Under the pieces are notes generated by a model. It saw only the letters and a list, made by a program, of their open reading frames with translations. It was not told the origin of the DNA and searched no databases. From the NCBI RefSeq assembly GCF_008014745.1, contig NZ_VPFD01000023.1, positions 1 to 64,000 of the forward strand: a DNA stretch of 64,000 nt, in the 5' to 3' direction. The stretch is from Massilia arenae. Lineage in GTDB: Bacteria; Pseudomonadota; Gammaproteobacteria; Burkholderiales; Burkholderiaceae_D. Positions 45,348-54,280 of this stretch are shown in pieces. How positions within the stretch are numbered: the stretch's first letter is position 1; each line of letters opens with the position of its first letter. Position numbers and translations under genes: made by a program.

Positions 45348-46406
45348 TTATTCTTGCCGCAACCGGCGCTGGCGCACCGCCGCCGCCAGTCCTTCCAGCA
45401 CGCCCACGCTGGTGTCCCAGTCGATGCAGCCATCGGTCACCGACTGGCCATAGGTCAGTTCCTTGCCCGGCACCAGGTCTTGCCGTCCGGCCACCAGGTG
45501 CGACTCGATCATCACGCCGACGATGCGGTCGTCGCCGCCCGCGATCTGGGCCGCGATGTCGGCGCACACCGGCACCTGGTTCTCGGGCTTCTTGGAACTG
45601 TTCGCATGCGAGGCGTCGATCATCAGGCGGCTGGCCAGGCCGAGCGCGGCGATCTGGCGACAGGCCTCCTCGACGCTGGCGGCATCGTAGTTCGGCGTCT
45701 TGCCACCGCGCAGGATGATGTGGCAATCCTCGTTGCCGGCGGTCGACACGATGGCCGAGTGGCCGCCCTTGGTCACCGACAGGAAGTGGTGCGGCTGCGA
45801 TGCAGCCTTGATCGCCTCGGTCGCGATCTTGATATTGCCGTCGGTACCGTTCTTGAAACCGACGGGGCACGACAGGCCGGAGGCGAGCTCGCGGTGCACC
45901 TGCGACTCGGTGGTGCGGGCGCCGATCGCGCCCCAGCTGACCAGGTCGGCGATGTACTGCGGGCTGATCACGTCGAGGAACTCGGTGCCGGCCGGCAGGC
46001 CCATCTCGTTGATGTCGCGCAGCAGCTCGCGCGCCATGCGCAGGCCGTCGTTGATGCGGAAGCTGTTGTCCATGTACGGGTCGTTGATCAGGCCTTTCCA
46101 GCCGACCGTGGTGCGCGGCTTCTCGAAATAGACCCGCATCACGATCTCGAGCTCGCCGGCAAAGCGCTGGCGTTCCTTGACCAGCCGGCGCGCGTACTCG
46201 AGCGCCGCCTTCGGATCGTGGATCGAGCACGGTCCGATCACCACCATAAGGCGGTCGTCCTGGCCGTGCAGGATGCGGTGCAGGTCGACGCGCGCGCCGG
46301 CCGCGGTCTGCTCGGCCTGCGGGGTCACCGGGAACTCGCGGATCAGGTGCGAGGGCGGCGTCAGTTCCTTCATTTCACGGATGCGTAAATCGTCGGTGCG
46401 GGGCAT
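45348..46406 (-). CDS. aroG: DAHP synthase (class I, AroF/G/H family)
   Basis: 3-Deoxy-D-arabino-heptulosonate 7-phosphate synthase condenses phosphoenolpyruvate and erythrose 4-phosphate, the first step of aromatic amino acid synthesis. The 352-residue protein (E. coli AroG 350) has VVIGPCSIHDPKAALEYARRL, MRVYFEKPRTTVGWKGLIND, GARTTESQVHRELASGLSCPVGFKNGTDG, DCHIILRGG and IDASHANSSKKP. These contain the metal- and phosphate-binding residues of class I enzymes. An N-terminal extension allows feedback control. Its mRNA leader encodes a Phe-rich peptide followed by a terminator, which suggests attenuation by aromatic amino acid supply. The symbol aroG is by family; aroF/aroH cannot be excluded. 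Confidence 0.93.
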   Translation of the reverse strand: MPRTDDLRIREMKELTPPSHLIREFPVTPQAEQTAAGARVDLHRILHGQDDRLMVVIGPCSIHDPKAALEYARRLVKERQRFAGELEIVMRVYFEKPRTTVGWKGLINDPYMDNSFRINDGLRMARELLRDINEMGLPAGTEFLDVISPQYIADLVSWGAIGARTTESQVHRELASGLSCPVGFKNGTDGNIKIATEAIKAASQPHHFLSVTKGGHSAIVSTAGNEDCHIILRGGKTPNYDAASVEEACRQIAALGLASRLMIDASHANSSKKPENQVPVCADIAAQIAGGDDRIVGVMIESHLVAGRQDLVPGKELTYGQSVTDGCIDWDTSVGVLEGLAAAVRQRRLRQE

Positions 46407-46458
46407 GCTGGGACTCCCTTTCGTGCTGTTCTGTGCTGGTCTTGTTCAGGACTGGAAA

Positions 46459-46485
46459 TAAAAAAACCGCCATCGCTGGCGGTTT
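46459..46485 (-). terminator. Attenuator terminator in the aroG leader
   Basis: On the minus strand AAACCGCCA (46485-46477), loop GCGA, TGGCGGTTT (46472-46464) and a run of T's. It lies between the leader peptide stop (46507) and the aroG start (46406). The 5' arm element ACCGCC can instead pair with GGCGGT inside the leader peptide gene (46538-46533), giving a possible antiterminator. Confidence 0.88.
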
Positions 46486-46506
46486 GTCTGGATGCTGCCG
46501 GGACGT

Positions 46507-46590
46507 TTACTCCGCGTACCCGCCGCTACTCCACCGCCTGAGGCTGGAATGGCTAAAGTAAAAAAAGCGGGTAAAGAAAGCGTGGCGCAT
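46507..46590 (-). CDS. Phe-rich leader peptide of aroG (attenuator)
   Basis: A 27-residue open frame on the minus strand, ATG 46590 to TAA 46507, too short for normal gene calling. It begins MRHA and continues FFTRFFYF. It holds five Phe, two Tyr and one Trp, with four Phe codons and one Tyr codon within eight positions. This composition is what ribosome-mediated attenuation needs, as in pheL. It follows a promoter by about 25 bases and precedes a terminator. The ribosome site is weak (GGACG). The clustered Phe codons point to phenylalanine as the main signal. Confidence 0.82.
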   Translation of the reverse strand: MRHAFFTRFFYFSHSSLRRWSSGGYAE

Positions 46591-46616
46591 GGTGTCGTCC
46601 GGGTTTGGTCGAATTG

Positions 46617-46646
46617 ACTATAACAACAAGGCATGAAAGTTGGCAA
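46617..46646 (-). promoter_or_regulatory. aroG leader promoter
   Basis: On the minus strand TTGCCA (46646-46641), an 18-base spacer and TATAGT (46622-46617). Both boxes match sigma-70 consensus at five of six positions. Transcription would start near 46610, about 20 bases before the leader peptide ATG. Confidence 0.7.
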
Positions 46647-46921
46647 GCCTTTTGTCGCTGGTTCCACGCTTGTACAGACAACAATCGGTTGCAGCGAACT
46701 GACATCCCTCCTTGCGCATGAGCGCCACCTTACGCGCATCTTGCGCTACCTCATTCCCGACGCGGCTACCGATGCAACAGTCGATTCAAGCCCGGCTGCC
46801 GCTCGTGTTGATTGTAGACACAAACAGGTACCAAGAGGTGCCAAGGAAATTGATCGGCGATAAGGATCAAGCCCTCCACCGCGCGGCATCCGAATCTTCC
46901 CATCCACTGGAGTGTCGGACC

Positions 46922-49789
46922 ATGACTGAAACCCTGCTTTCCCGTTCCGTGCGCCGCCTGTTCGCGGGCGGCGGCGCCGCCGGCCTGGCGCTCGCCGGCC
47001 CCGTGCTGCTGGCCCTTCCCCACCCTGCTCTCGCACAGGAAGCCGCTCCCGTGGCCCGGGTCGAGATCACCGGCTCGAACATCCGCCGCGCCCAGGCCGA
47101 GACCGCGTCCAGCGTGCTCACCGTCAACCGCGCCGACATCGAGCGCTCGGGCAAGACCACGGTGGCCGAGCTGCTGCAGACCCTGGCGGTCGACAACCAG
47201 GGCTCGGTGCCGATGAGCTTCGGCAGCGGCTTCGCGGCCGGCGCCTCCGGCATCTCGCTGCGCGGCCTGGGCACGGCCTCGACCCTGGTGCTGCTCAACG
47301 GCCGCCGCATGGCGCCCTACGGCCTGGCCGACGACGGCCAGAAGGTGTTCGCCGACCTCAACGTGATCCCGACCGACGCCGTCGAGCGTATCGAGATCCT
47401 CAAGGACGGCGCCTCGGCCATCTATGGCTCGGACGCGATCGCCGGCGTGGTCAACATCATCCTGCGCCGCAACTTCCAGGGCACCAGCGCGCGCGCCCTG
47501 TACGGCAGCGGCGAGGCCGGCGACGGCCAGCAGCACAACCTGGCCCTGGCCTGGGGCTTCGGCAACCTCGAGACCGACCGCTACAACGTGCTGGTCAACG
47601 TCGAGTACAAGCACACGCAAGAAATCTGGTACCGCAACCGCGGCAACCGCGACTACATCGGCAAGATCGACCTGCGGCCCTATGGCTATTCGGCCCAGGA
47701 AGGCTTCGGCGGCACCGGCGCCATCACCGGCAACAACCAGTCGGGCAATGCCATCAACGGCAATGTGCGCAACCCCGACACGCTGGAGTACTACAACCGC
47801 GGCAACCTGGCCGGGCCCGGCTTCACGCGCACCTTCCCGGGCGCCGCCTGCGGCAACTTCACCAACCACCCGCAGGGCGATCCGGGCGGCGGCTGCCTGG
47901 TCGATTCGGCCTTCCTGTACAACCAGATCCAGCCCGACAGCGAAAACCTGTCGCTGTACACCCGCGGCACGCTCAAGCTGCAGGGCAATACCGAGGCCTA
48001 TGCCGAACTGAATCTGTACAACAGCCTGGCCCAGTCCAGCACCACGCCGAACCCGATCGCAGCCAGCGTCGGCTATCCCGGCGGCCCGGTCAGCAACGCC
48101 GGCGTCCAGTTCGGCGCCGAGCATCCCGACAACCCGTATTTCGGCCGCGCCGCGCGGCTGCGCTACCTGCCCTTCGACGTCGGTCCGCGCCAGTCCGACA
48201 TCTCCTCGAACTTCCTGCGCGCCCTGTTCGGCGCGCGCGGCACCAGTGGCGCCTGGGACTGGGATACCTCGCTGCTGTATTCGACCAGCAGGGTCGACAA
48301 CGACCGCCGCGGCTACCTGCAGCGCGACGCCACCTTTGCCCTGCTCGACCCGTCGGCCGCGAACGTGGCGGCGGCCCAGGCCAATCCCGGCTACCGCGCC
48401 CTGCCGGCCGGCACCTATTGGCGCATCGGCGAAAGCGCGGGCCTCAATTCTCCGGGCGTGTACGCCGCCCTGTCGCCGACCATCTCCAACGATGCCAAGA
48501 CCGAGATCGCCCAGGTCGACTTCAAGGCCTCGCGCGAGATCGGCAAGCTGGCCGGCGGCGCGGTGGGCGTGGCCCTGGGCGCCGAATTCCGCCACGAATC
48601 GGCGCGCCTGGATCCGACGGCAGGCACCGAGCGCGGCAATATCATCGGCCTGGGCTATTCGGCCTACGACGGCCAGCGCAACGTCACCGGGCTGTACGGC
48701 GAAGTGCTGGCCCCGGTGCTGCCGGGGCTGGAACTGACCGGCGCCATGCGCTACGACCACTTCACCGACGTGGGCGACGCCTGGACCCCGAAGGTGGGTG
48801 TCAAGTGGAACCCGCGCCGCGAACTGGCGTTGCGCGCCACCTGGGCCAAGGGCTTCCGCGCGCCAAGCCCGGCCGAGAATGGCGTCGGCGGCCTGGCGGC
48901 CTTCGCCAACGCCACCGATCCGGTGCGCTGTGCGCTGGGCGTGCAGACCGCCTGCAACCCGGGATCGGTGTCGGTCATCACCTCGCCCAACCAGGACCTG
49001 AGCCCGGAACGCTCGAAGAGCTGGAATATCGGCGCGATCTGGGATCCGCTGCCGCGCACCAGTTTCTCGCTCGACTTCTGGAACATCAAGCGCAAGAACG
49101 AGATCAACCAGCAGCAGATCGACGCCGCGATCGCGGCCGGCGACGTGGCGCGCGATCCGAGCACGGCGGTGCCGACGATCCCGGGCGACCCGGGCGCGAT
49201 CACGGCGGTGCTGGCCGAATACGTGAACTCGGCCGAGACCGAGGTGCGCGGCATCGACCTCGACGCGCGCCAGGGCTTCGGGCTGCCGAACAACTGGGGC
49301 ACGCTGACCTTCGACGTCAAGTACACCTACCTCGACAAATGGGAGCGCACCGAACAGGACGGCACCACGCGTGACTACGCCGGCACCCACGGCAACTGCG
49401 ACGTTAGCAACTGCATGGGCACGCCGGACCACAAGGCCAACCTGCGCGCGACCTGGGAGCGCGCCAACTGGCGCGTGTCGGCCAACGTCAACTACCGGGG
49501 CCCGATCGACAACACCTTCTTCAAGGATGATCCGGAAGGCTGCGCCAGCCACTTCGCCAACGGCATTGACGCGCCAAGCGATTGCGAACTGGCCTCGTTC
49601 ACGACGGTCGACCTGGTGTTCCGCTGGAAGCCGCAGCCGCGCTGGGAAATCTACGGCTCGATCCAGAACCTGTTCGACAAGCAGGCGCCGCTCGATCCGC
49701 TGACCTATGGCGCGGTGTCGTACAACCCGCTCGACTACTACGGTGCGATCGGCCGCTTCTTCACGCTGGGGGCGAGATACGCGTTCTGA
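46922..49789 (+). CDS. TonB-dependent outer-membrane receptor 2
   Basis: The 955-residue protein starts at ATG 46922. It has a signal peptide (residues about 1-38, ending ALAQ), a TonB-box-like RVEITGSNIRRAQ and a plug with KTTVAELLQTLAVDNQG, GISLRGLGTASTLVLLNGRR and [30 protein letters not shown] long barrel follows with a conserved late segment (LRATWAKGFRAPSPAENGVGGL) and the C-terminal aromatic FTLGARYAF. Two acidic/Cys loops (CGNFTNHPQGDPGGGC; CDVSNCMG) may be extracellular. The substrate is unknown. It lies between the aroG leader and the convergent receptor 3. Confidence 0.93.
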   Translation: MTETLLSRSVRRLFAGGGAAGLALAGPVLLALPHPALAQEAAPVARVEITGSNIRRAQAETASSVLTVNRADIERSGKTTVAELLQTLAVDNQGSVPMSFGSGFAAGASGISLRGLGTASTLVLLNGRRMAPYGLADDGQKVFADLNVIPTDAVERIEILKDGASAIYGSDAIAGVVNIILRRNFQGTSARALYGSGEAGDGQQHNLALAWGFGNLETDRYNVLVNVEYKHTQEIWYRNRGNRDYIGKIDLRPYGYSAQEGFGGTGAITGNNQSGNAINGNVRNPDTLEYYNRGNLAGPGFTRTFPGAACGNFTNHPQGDPGGGCLVDSAFLYNQIQPDSENLSLYTRGTLKLQGNTEAYAELNLYNSLAQSSTTPNPIAASVGYPGGPVSNAGVQFGAEHPDNPYFGRAARLRYLPFDVGPRQSDISSNFLRALFGARGTSGAWDWDTSLLYSTSRVDNDRRGYLQRDATFALLDPSAANVAAAQANPGYRALPAGTYWRIGESAGLNSPGVYAALSPTISNDAKTEIAQVDFKASREIGKLAGGAVGVALGAEFRHESARLDPTAGTERGNIIGLGYSAYDGQRNVTGLYGEVLAPVLPGLELTGAMRYDHFTDVGDAWTPKVGVKWNPRRELALRATWAKGFRAPSPAENGVGGLAAFANATDPVRCALGVQTACNPGSVSVITSPNQDLSPERSKSWNIGAIWDPLPRTSFSLDFWNIKRKNEINQQQIDAAIAAGDVARDPSTAVPTIPGDPGAITAVLAEYVNSAETEVRGIDLDARQGFGLPNNWGTLTFDVKYTYLDKWERTEQDGTTRDYAGTHGNCDVSNCMGTPDHKANLRATWERANWRVSANVNYRGPIDNTFFKDDPEGCASHFANGIDAPSDCELASFTTVDLVFRWKPQPRWEIYGSIQNLFDKQAPLDPLTYGAVSYNPLDYYGAIGRFFTLGARYAF

Positions 49790-52729: not shown

Positions 52730-54190
52730 TCAGGCCGTACCGCCCACCGTCACCCCATCGATGCGCAGGGTCGGCTGGCCGACGCCCACCGGCACGCTCT
52801 GGCCTTCCTTGCCGCACACGCCGACGCCCGAATCCAGGCGCATGTCGTTGCCGATCATCGAGATGCGGTTCATCACGTCCGGGCCGTTGCCGATCAGGGT
52901 CGCGCCCTTCACCGGATAGGTGATCTTGCCGTCCTCGATCATATAGGCCTCGCTGGCCGAGAACACGAACTTGCCGTTGGTGATGTCGACCTGGCCGCCG
53001 CCGAAATTGGCTGCGTAGATGCCGTTCTTGACCGAGGCCAGGATCTCCTGCGGGTCCTTGTCGCCGGCGAGCATATAGGTATTGGTCATGCGCGGCATCG
53101 GCAGGTGGGCGAACGATTCGCGGCGCGCATTGCCGGTGACCGGCATCTTCATCAGGCGCGCATTCATCGTGTCCTGGATATAGCCTTTCAGGATCCCGTC
53201 CTCGATCAGCGTGGTGCACTGGGTCGGGTTGCCTTCGTCGTCGATGTTCAGCGAACCGCGGCGGTCCTGCAGGGTGCCGTCGTCGACCACGGTCACGCCC
53301 TTGGCCGCCACGCGCTGGCCGATCATACCGGCATACGAGGACGATCCCTTGCGGTTGAAGTCGCCCTCCAGGCCGTGGCCGACCGCCTCGTGCAGCAGCA
53401 CGCCGGGCCAGCCCGGTCCCAGCACGATGGTCATCGGACCGGCCGGCGCCGGACGCGCCTCCAGGTTGACGCAGGCCGACTTGACCGCCTCGGTGGCGTA
53501 GCGGTCGAGCACCTCGTCGTCGAAATAGCCGTAGTCGAAACGGCCGCCGCCGCCAGATGAGCCGACTTCGCGCCGGCCGTTCTGCTCGGCGATCACGGTC
53601 ACCGACACGCGCACCAGCGGACGGATGTCGGCCGCCAGCACGCCGTCGCTGCGCACCACCAGCACCACGTCGTATTCGCCGGCCAGGCCCGCCATCACCT
53701 GCACCACGCGCGGATCTTTTGCGCGCGCCATCTTTTCCACGCGCTCGAGCAGTTTCACTTTCGCGGTGGCGTCGAGCGATGCCAGCGGATCGTTGGGCAG
53801 GTACAGCGAACGGCCGCCGGTGGGCAGCGCGCTGCCGGCCACCTTGATGCGGCCGGCGCCCTGGCGACCGATGGTGCGGGTGGCGGCGGCAGCGTCGAGC
53901 AGCGCCGCTTCGGAAATCTCGTCGGAATACGCAAACGCGGTCTTGTCGCCCGAGATGGCGCGCACGCCGACGCCCTGGTCGATCGAGAAGCTGCCGGTCT
54001 TGACGATGCCCTCTTCCAGGCTCCAGCCTTCGCTCTTGGTGAACTGGAAGTACAGGTCGGCGTAGTCGACCTTGTGCGTGAACATCGTTCCCAGCGCGCG
54101 CAGCAGCTTGCCTTCGTCGAGGCCGAATGGCGTCAACAGCACGTCGCGCGCGACGGCGATGGAAGAAAGATTCGGTTCGAATGGAGTCAT
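52730..54190 (-). CDS. tldD: Metalloprotease TldD
   Basis: TldD, with TldE/PmbA, is a cytoplasmic zinc protease that degrades unfolded peptides; in some bacteria it matures microcins and affects gyrase-inhibitor sensitivity. The protein has 486 residues (E. coli 481) with the HExxxH-type zinc motif [20 protein letters not shown], the N-terminal [22 protein letters not shown] and the C-terminal [13 protein letters not shown] chose the ATG at 54190 to match family length; ATG 54223 and 54277 are in frame. pmbA is not adjacent. It lies downstream of the nitrilase gene. Confidence 0.95.
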
Positions 54191-54280
54191 GTTTGCGTTC
54201 GGTCTTTCATATGGATAGGTCATTGTGCCATATCCAGTTCTTTCACACTGGACGCATGCTAGACGCGTCCATGTCATTCC

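Follow-up and report, generated by a model that had tools for sequence, protein, structure and literature searches.

A predicted phenylalanine-sensing transcription attenuator upstream of the DAHP synthase gene aroG in Massilia arenae and other Burkholderiales

Leader region of aroG in Massilia arenae

The window, i.e. the whole stretch of 64,000 nucleotides of Massilia arenae DNA that was analysed, carries on its minus strand a gene for a type I DAHP synthase, aroG, which is preceded, in the order of transcription, by a promoter, a short leader ORF and an intrinsic terminator. The region is composed of the following parts:

46617..46646, minus strand: sigma70-type promoter of the leader transcript, TTGCCA-18-TATAGT (10/12 in the sigma-70 consensus scan)
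46507..46590, minus strand: leader peptide ORF of 27 codons, MRHAFFTRFFYFSHSSLRRWSSGGYAE (ORF call)
46542..46549, minus strand: region 1 (TTCCAGCC), which would pair with region 2 to form a protector hairpin (MFE folds of the window; conserved in alignment A1)
46530..46538, minus strand: region 2 (GGCGGTGGA), 5' strand of the predicted antiterminator within the leader ORF (fold and alignment)
46478..46483, minus strand: region 3 (ACCGCC), 5' arm of the terminator and 3' strand of the predicted antiterminator (terminator scan and fold)
46464..46485, minus strand: intrinsic terminator hairpin formed by regions 3:4, AAACCGCCA-GCGA-TGGCGGTTT, followed by a T-run (terminator scan)
45348..46406, minus strand: aroG, type I DAHP synthase, the gene proposed to be attenuated (NCBIfam AroG, NF006723)

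Promoter, Phe-rich leader of 27 codons, terminator with T-run and aroG had been named in this order in a preliminary description of the sequence, and all of them were found on the minus strand. The antiterminator pairing proposed there between GGCGGT of the leader and ACCGCC of the terminator arm was right as well: in the nascent-RNA fold, GGCGG (inside 46538-46533) paired with CCGCC (inside 46483-46478) with P = 1.0. The sensing run of the window leader comprises the Phe codons 5, 6, 9, 10 and 12 together with Tyr codon 11. Besides TTGCCA-18-TATAGT, the consensus scan detected no second sigma-70-like site in 46300-47000, and to this extent gave no sign of an aroG start downstream of the terminator, which the preliminary description had named as contrary evidence. 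Taken alone, the terminator scan was not significant in the window (1 found, where shuffles averaged 0.7), and the energy of the whole-leader fold indicated no unusual stability (z = -0.85). Because the whole-leader fold is unremarkable, the significance of the element rests on comparison, namely on conservation, reading frame and association with aroG.

The product of the window aroG scored 587.6 bits against the NCBIfam AroG equivalog model NF006723 (cut-off 568), and with its role in aromatic synthesis the structural gene fits the pathway of the amino acid that the leader is predicted to sense. A second DAHP synthase of the same genome, 50% identical, is encoded on contig C12, and no aromatic leader was noticed upstream of it when the DNA was read by eye. 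In another genome of the genus (G020), rated 100% complete, the only DAHP synthase seen was the distant paralog, and AroG had no match.

Conservation among aroG loci

For comparison, we assembled 80 named aroG loci, the best 80 among the matches listed, from Massilia, Janthinobacterium, Duganella, Rugamonas, Collimonas, Herminiimonas, Undibacterium, Noviherbaspirillum, Caballeronia, Paraburkholderia and other genera. A strict rule, which demanded a terminator and, within ten residues, five aromatic ones including three Phe, was passed by 76/80 of these loci, and the conservation of a Phe/Tyr-rich short frame with a terminator upstream of aroG, on which the preliminary description had made its reading depend, was thereby borne out. 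Among the four loci that failed (L045, L063, L065 and L073), L065 has a disrupted and L073 an overlong frame, and in L045 and L063 the attenuator is truly absent, aroG following 36 and 76 nt behind tldD, so that the whole leader was apparently lost. A looser script combined with the covariance model found leader and terminator in 78/80 named loci. Over all scored loci, the looser script found both in 103/109, with L065 counted as positive in spite of its broken-up frame, and the remaining four misses (L107, L109, L110 and L111) belong to other families. This scoring omits L002, a paralog, and L010, which was missed by the motif filter and recovered by the covariance model R1; the leader picks of L073, L087 and L105 were set by hand. 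In G124 (L143), no attenuator was detected by the scans.

The inconspicuous terminator scan and fold energy of the window by themselves would be compatible with a short frame and a hairpin that had come together by chance. The strict rule was passed by 0/580 dinucleotide shuffles and by 0/116 reverse complements, which compared with the named loci refutes a chance origin and makes its probability practically nil.

TTGCCA/TATAGT was the best promoter site in 60/94 distinct loci scanned, and the best site reached at least 9/12 in 67/94 of them, versus 3% of mononucleotide shuffles. In alignment A1, which comprises 65 of 83 non-redundant sequences, GGCGG was invariant across all 65 loci, and RNAalifold recovered the terminator alone, with a covariation term of -0.07. 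As there is no variation in GGCGG or in most of the arm, covariation within the family says little, and we therefore resorted to a swap test between families (see below). Between the leader stop and the terminator (about 46530-46480 in the window), the relatives aligned in A1 additionally contain conserved boxes resembling GGTTCACG and AACCGAATTC.

Reading frame of the leader

The core motif TTTAGC...GGCGGT was present in 78 distinct loci (109 loci scanned, 23 without core motif, 8 duplicates), and in 78/78 the nearest ATG was located in frame, 33, 36 or 39 nt before TTTAGC. Across the same loci, the distance separating core and terminator arm occurred in all three phases (30/27/21). Since the distance to the ATG is always in frame, length changes before TTTAGC have been restricted to whole codons, whereas later ones have been free. 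Loss of the frame had been named in the preliminary description as evidence against attenuation, and the frame was found to be kept throughout. Counting synonymous and non-synonymous changes did not single out the leader frame (0.51 versus 0.56 and 0.67). Phe codons of 95 distinct leaders were mostly TTT (342 TTT versus 104 TTC), while TTC was favoured 519 to 107 in the first 350 codons of aroG at the same loci, a contrast that is descriptive because the loci are related.

At its C-terminus, the window peptide carries SSLRRWSSGGYAE, with a Trp and a second Tyr, in place of SSLQAVE* of its relatives (common form SSxxAVE*). One base is missing before GGCGG, which places the window leader among the longer ones. 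A frame shift of the SSLRRWSSGGYAE type was common to L083 and L005/L086 only among the peptides compared, and because this shift is lineage-specific, Trp and the second Tyr can be regarded as its by-products.

Predicted folding of the leader RNA

In a one-sided fold, in which the RNA segment began 13 nt past the A-site codon and ended with the terminator loop, ribosomes stalled at codons 3-14 of the window leader, a range that includes all Phe codons, led to sequestration of the 5' arm with P = 0.96-1.00, and stalls at codons 15-18 with P = 0.52-0.99. At the last Phe codon the value was 1.00, compared to 0.15 at the stop codon and 0.19 without ribosome, and 0/20 shuffles were as high. Trp and the second Tyr had been named along with the Phe-rich run in the preliminary description; they lie outside the conserved sensor, and stalls at Trp20 and Tyr25 yielded 0.62 and 0.64 with weak structures of -7 and -4 kcal/mol only, so that this part of the claim was abandoned. 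For 102 of 103 loci (L073 was left out of the fold sets), mean arm sequestration in the one-sided fold was 0.93 at the last Phe codon, 0.24 at the stop codon, 0.43 without ribosome and 0.62 with shuffled mid-segments, and the Phe stall exceeded the stop in 101/102 loci. In L060 and L106, the predicted switch was absent even in the one-sided fold. In silico, the antiterminator thus makes use of the terminator 5' arm and is free upon a stall at the cognate codons.

When folding was permitted both upstream and downstream of the ribosome (two-sided fold), a switch persisted in the 74 leaders whose stop lies at region 2 (0.90 at Phe versus 0.31 at the stop codon), whereas the 28 leaders without an AVE(KR) end hardly switched (0.87 versus 0.74). 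With eight leaders of the Caballeronia/Paraburkholderia type, no clean switch was obtained in this fold (Phe 0.97, stop 0.80, no ribosome 0.95), and L005 was high in every state, with 1.00 at the stop codon and 0.99 without ribosome. For the window itself, the antiterminator still had a probability of 0.95 with the ribosome at the stop codon. From the switch between GGCGGT and ACCGCC put forward in the preliminary description, the pairing therefore stands, but the two-sided fold of the window does not show clearly enough that a ribosome at the stop codon blocks it. For the longer leaders, termination would follow release of the ribosome, as the low one-sided value of the window without ribosome would allow, or pairing across the ribosome would be blocked sterically, or the equilibrium folds may be misleading.

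From family to family, region 2 varies in step with region 3, the pairs being CCTGGCGG/CCGCCAGG in f12, CCGGCGG/CCGCCGG in f3 and GGCGGT/ACCGCC in f1. In the swap test, performed with the 28 strict hits plus 8 loci picked by the author, the match of region 2 with its own arm was longer than the mean for arms of other families in 26/36 rows (6.25 versus 5.64 bp; Wilcoxon p = 5e-4, with rows that are related and not independent). Judged by energy, the own arm was better in 22/36 rows, and the rows of family f1 were not better. In G136 and L079, region 2 had no long Watson-Crick match with the arm.

A tldD-type C-terminus is encoded on the same strand within 1.5 kb upstream in 46/79 scanned named loci, so that a terminator at this position might serve tldD. 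Hence, the hairpin could end an upstream transcription unit or act as a constitutive partial terminator, with an ORF that is incidental or serves translational reinitiation, and both the indecisive count of synonymous changes and the lineages without a switch in the two-sided fold would agree with this. Against it, the hairpin is conserved together with frame, Phe run and region 2, a promoter is present upstream of the ORF in most loci scanned, region 2 changes with the terminator arm between families, and the tldD of the window lies at a distance of 6.3 kb from aroG, all of which renders such roles of hairpin and ORF very unlikely. The window tldD (52730-54277, minus strand; NCBIfam NF008006, 676.7 bits) is separated from aroG by a TonB-receptor-like gene.

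Distribution of the element

A search of 150 genomes of the order with the covariance model R1, which was built from 65 loci, gave a match at E <= 0.01 in 49 of them. Of 32 full-length matches in these genomes, 30 lay on the strand of aroG and no more than 500 nt upstream of it. The 30 contain at least two training rows of R1, the window and G012, and the leader of G041 is identical to that of the training row L047, but most of the 30 came from other families. The strict rule was passed by 28/110 upstream regions of AroG-like genes in the order, from 13/32 families; 82/110 regions failed, and most sampled families were negative by these rules. For more distant DAHP synthases, six upstream regions were taken from among those listed, and 0/6 passed the strict rule. 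Looser rules yielded 15 candidates, from which only the five that also had model hits were counted as further regions (G092, G156, G111, G116 and G126).

In a class-wide run of R1 on 274 genomes with stricter filters, seven genomes had matches at E <= 0.001. Two of these matches belong to family f63, which lies outside the order; both are followed by an AroG-like ORF, and their leaders contain WYYFPKPxAEEG. The matches in G235 and G283 had no leader-like appearance. One R1 match away from aroG (L265, G140:C20:48227-48359) comprises a Tyr-rich leader-like ORF, MVTFSVVYNVYFYWYRSSGGAKGC, with a terminator, and precedes an ORF of 204 aa that matched nothing in Pfam.

Discussion

Based on sequence comparison and modelled folds, the element upstream of aroG is very probably a transcription attenuator of the classical ribosome-mediated type, with charged tRNA-Phe as its signal and aroG as the gene under control. 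In this scheme, RNA polymerase would start a few bases past the -10 box, at about 46610, and produce a leader RNA on which a ribosome would translate the Phe-rich leader. If Phe-tRNA is short, the ribosome would stall in codons 5-12 and leave region 2 free to pair with region 3, so that the terminator could not form and aroG would be transcribed. If Phe is plentiful, the ribosome would pass region 2 and leave, region 2 would be covered or folded back on upstream RNA, and regions 3:4 would then form the terminator and shut off aroG.

The mixed FFYF or FYFYF run raises the question whether the attenuator may answer to Tyr, or to both amino acids alike, rather than mainly to Phe, through stalling whenever either tRNA is uncharged. 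Of 110 distinct leaders, 103 have Tyr within the first 18 residues, the window's Tyr11 falls inside the effective stall zone of the fold, and E. coli also possesses a Tyr-sensitive DAHP synthase. However, the best NCBIfam model for the window gene is AroG, which in E. coli is the Phe-sensitive isozyme. In the same 110 leaders, Phe was never absent, Tyr was lacking in 7, Trp in 65 and both of these in 3, and residue totals were 504 for Phe versus 212 for Tyr; that no leader is without Phe is in part a result of selection because the scans asked for aromatic residues and the strict scan for three Phe. For the aroR leader of Corynebacterium glutamicum (Phe-Tyr-Phe), a review describes the availability of Tyr as being without effect (PMC11802643). 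A Tyr signal or an equal Phe and Tyr signal thus appears rather unlikely, and Phe is the best-supported signal, to which Tyr may possibly contribute.

It is also conceivable, although highly improbable, that the aroG leader is of old age and has been widely retained as a Phe sensor where the shikimate pathway begins, and that its terminated leader RNA or peptide additionally acts in trans, as reported for peTrpL of Sinorhizobium (PMC7298713). Such a role would explain why leader DNA such as TTTTACTTTAGC and the boxes that lie between the stop of the leader and the terminator seem more strongly conserved than a switch would require, and why the element persists in some lineages despite folds that make poor simple switches.

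The first step of aromatic synthesis is controlled by repressors in E. coli, and the Phe attenuators of this species, pheL-pheA and pheST, are located on the terminal branch and on a tRNA synthetase. With the aroG element they share a leader with Phe codons and a mutually exclusive antiterminator and terminator. For a DAHP synthase gene, Neshat et al. reportedly described in 2014 an attenuator with the aroR leader upstream of aroF of C. glutamicum. The preliminary description regarded a Phe attenuator at the first step of the pathway as a new design, a view that cannot be upheld in light of the precedents that follow. According to two publications, Phe attenuation of a DAHP synthase gene was reported for aroR-aroF of C. 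glutamicum, where a Phe-containing leader precedes the gene and Phe limitation enhances transcription (PMC11802643, PMC4046766); the former also names the E. coli attenuators. The likeness was judged by description, and C. glutamicum differs in being an Actinobacterium with an aromatic run of three residues. For aroF of Acholeplasma, Phe attenuation was suggested by the authors of the uORFC-13-1 motif, which similarly combines (PMC8632094) a uORF containing at least one Phe codon, a possible promoter and an intrinsic terminator with a DAHP synthase gene. This motif, likewise compared by description, differs by an extra conserved structure and by its occurrence, with 24 unique sequences, in Acholeplasma and in environmental DNA. 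For aroF of Shewanella, an 'Attenuator sensing tyr-tRNA' was predicted computationally (Table 3 of PMC2659441), which also places attenuation at a DAHP synthase gene, there with Tyr as signal and a Tyr-sensitive isozyme.

Since Phe attenuation of DAHP synthase genes has already been reported or proposed, the element in Burkholderiales represents a new and widespread case of a familiar type of switch. In Rfam (release 15), no leader family matched 46000-47000 of the window up to E 5, and L003, L034, L070, L166 and L220 had no match up to E 1. Among the open-access papers listed by our searches, none was on an aroG attenuator in Burkholderiales; Vitreschak 2004 and Lopatovskaya 2010 might contain a description, and neither aroG nor aroF appears in the main texts of PMC2965389, PMC4833913 and PMC1262725.

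If our interpretation is correct, a large group of proteobacteria gates the first aromatic step through RNA by the charging of Phe-tRNA, where E. coli uses repressors, and the group would extend over the 13/32 sampled families of the order with AroG-like genes plus one family outside. The element would then also offer a test case for whether Actinobacteria, Acholeplasma and these proteobacteria evolved the same logic of attenuation at DAHP synthase genes separately. For metabolic engineering, it predicts that removal of the terminator should raise aromatic flux.

Other aromatic genes of the genome

Upstream of the genome's own pheA and pheS, no aromatic leader was present in the scanned DNA of L258 and L259, with L258 beginning just before serC of the serC-pheA cluster. 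Upstream of trpE (L260, G000:C32), the reverse strand contains at nt 1237-1323 the ORF MFFTKKHTVNQTGALEAWLWRRWQSWAN, followed by CTGCCGGG...CCCGGCAG and a T-run, and this element of the same genome is probably a Trp attenuator.
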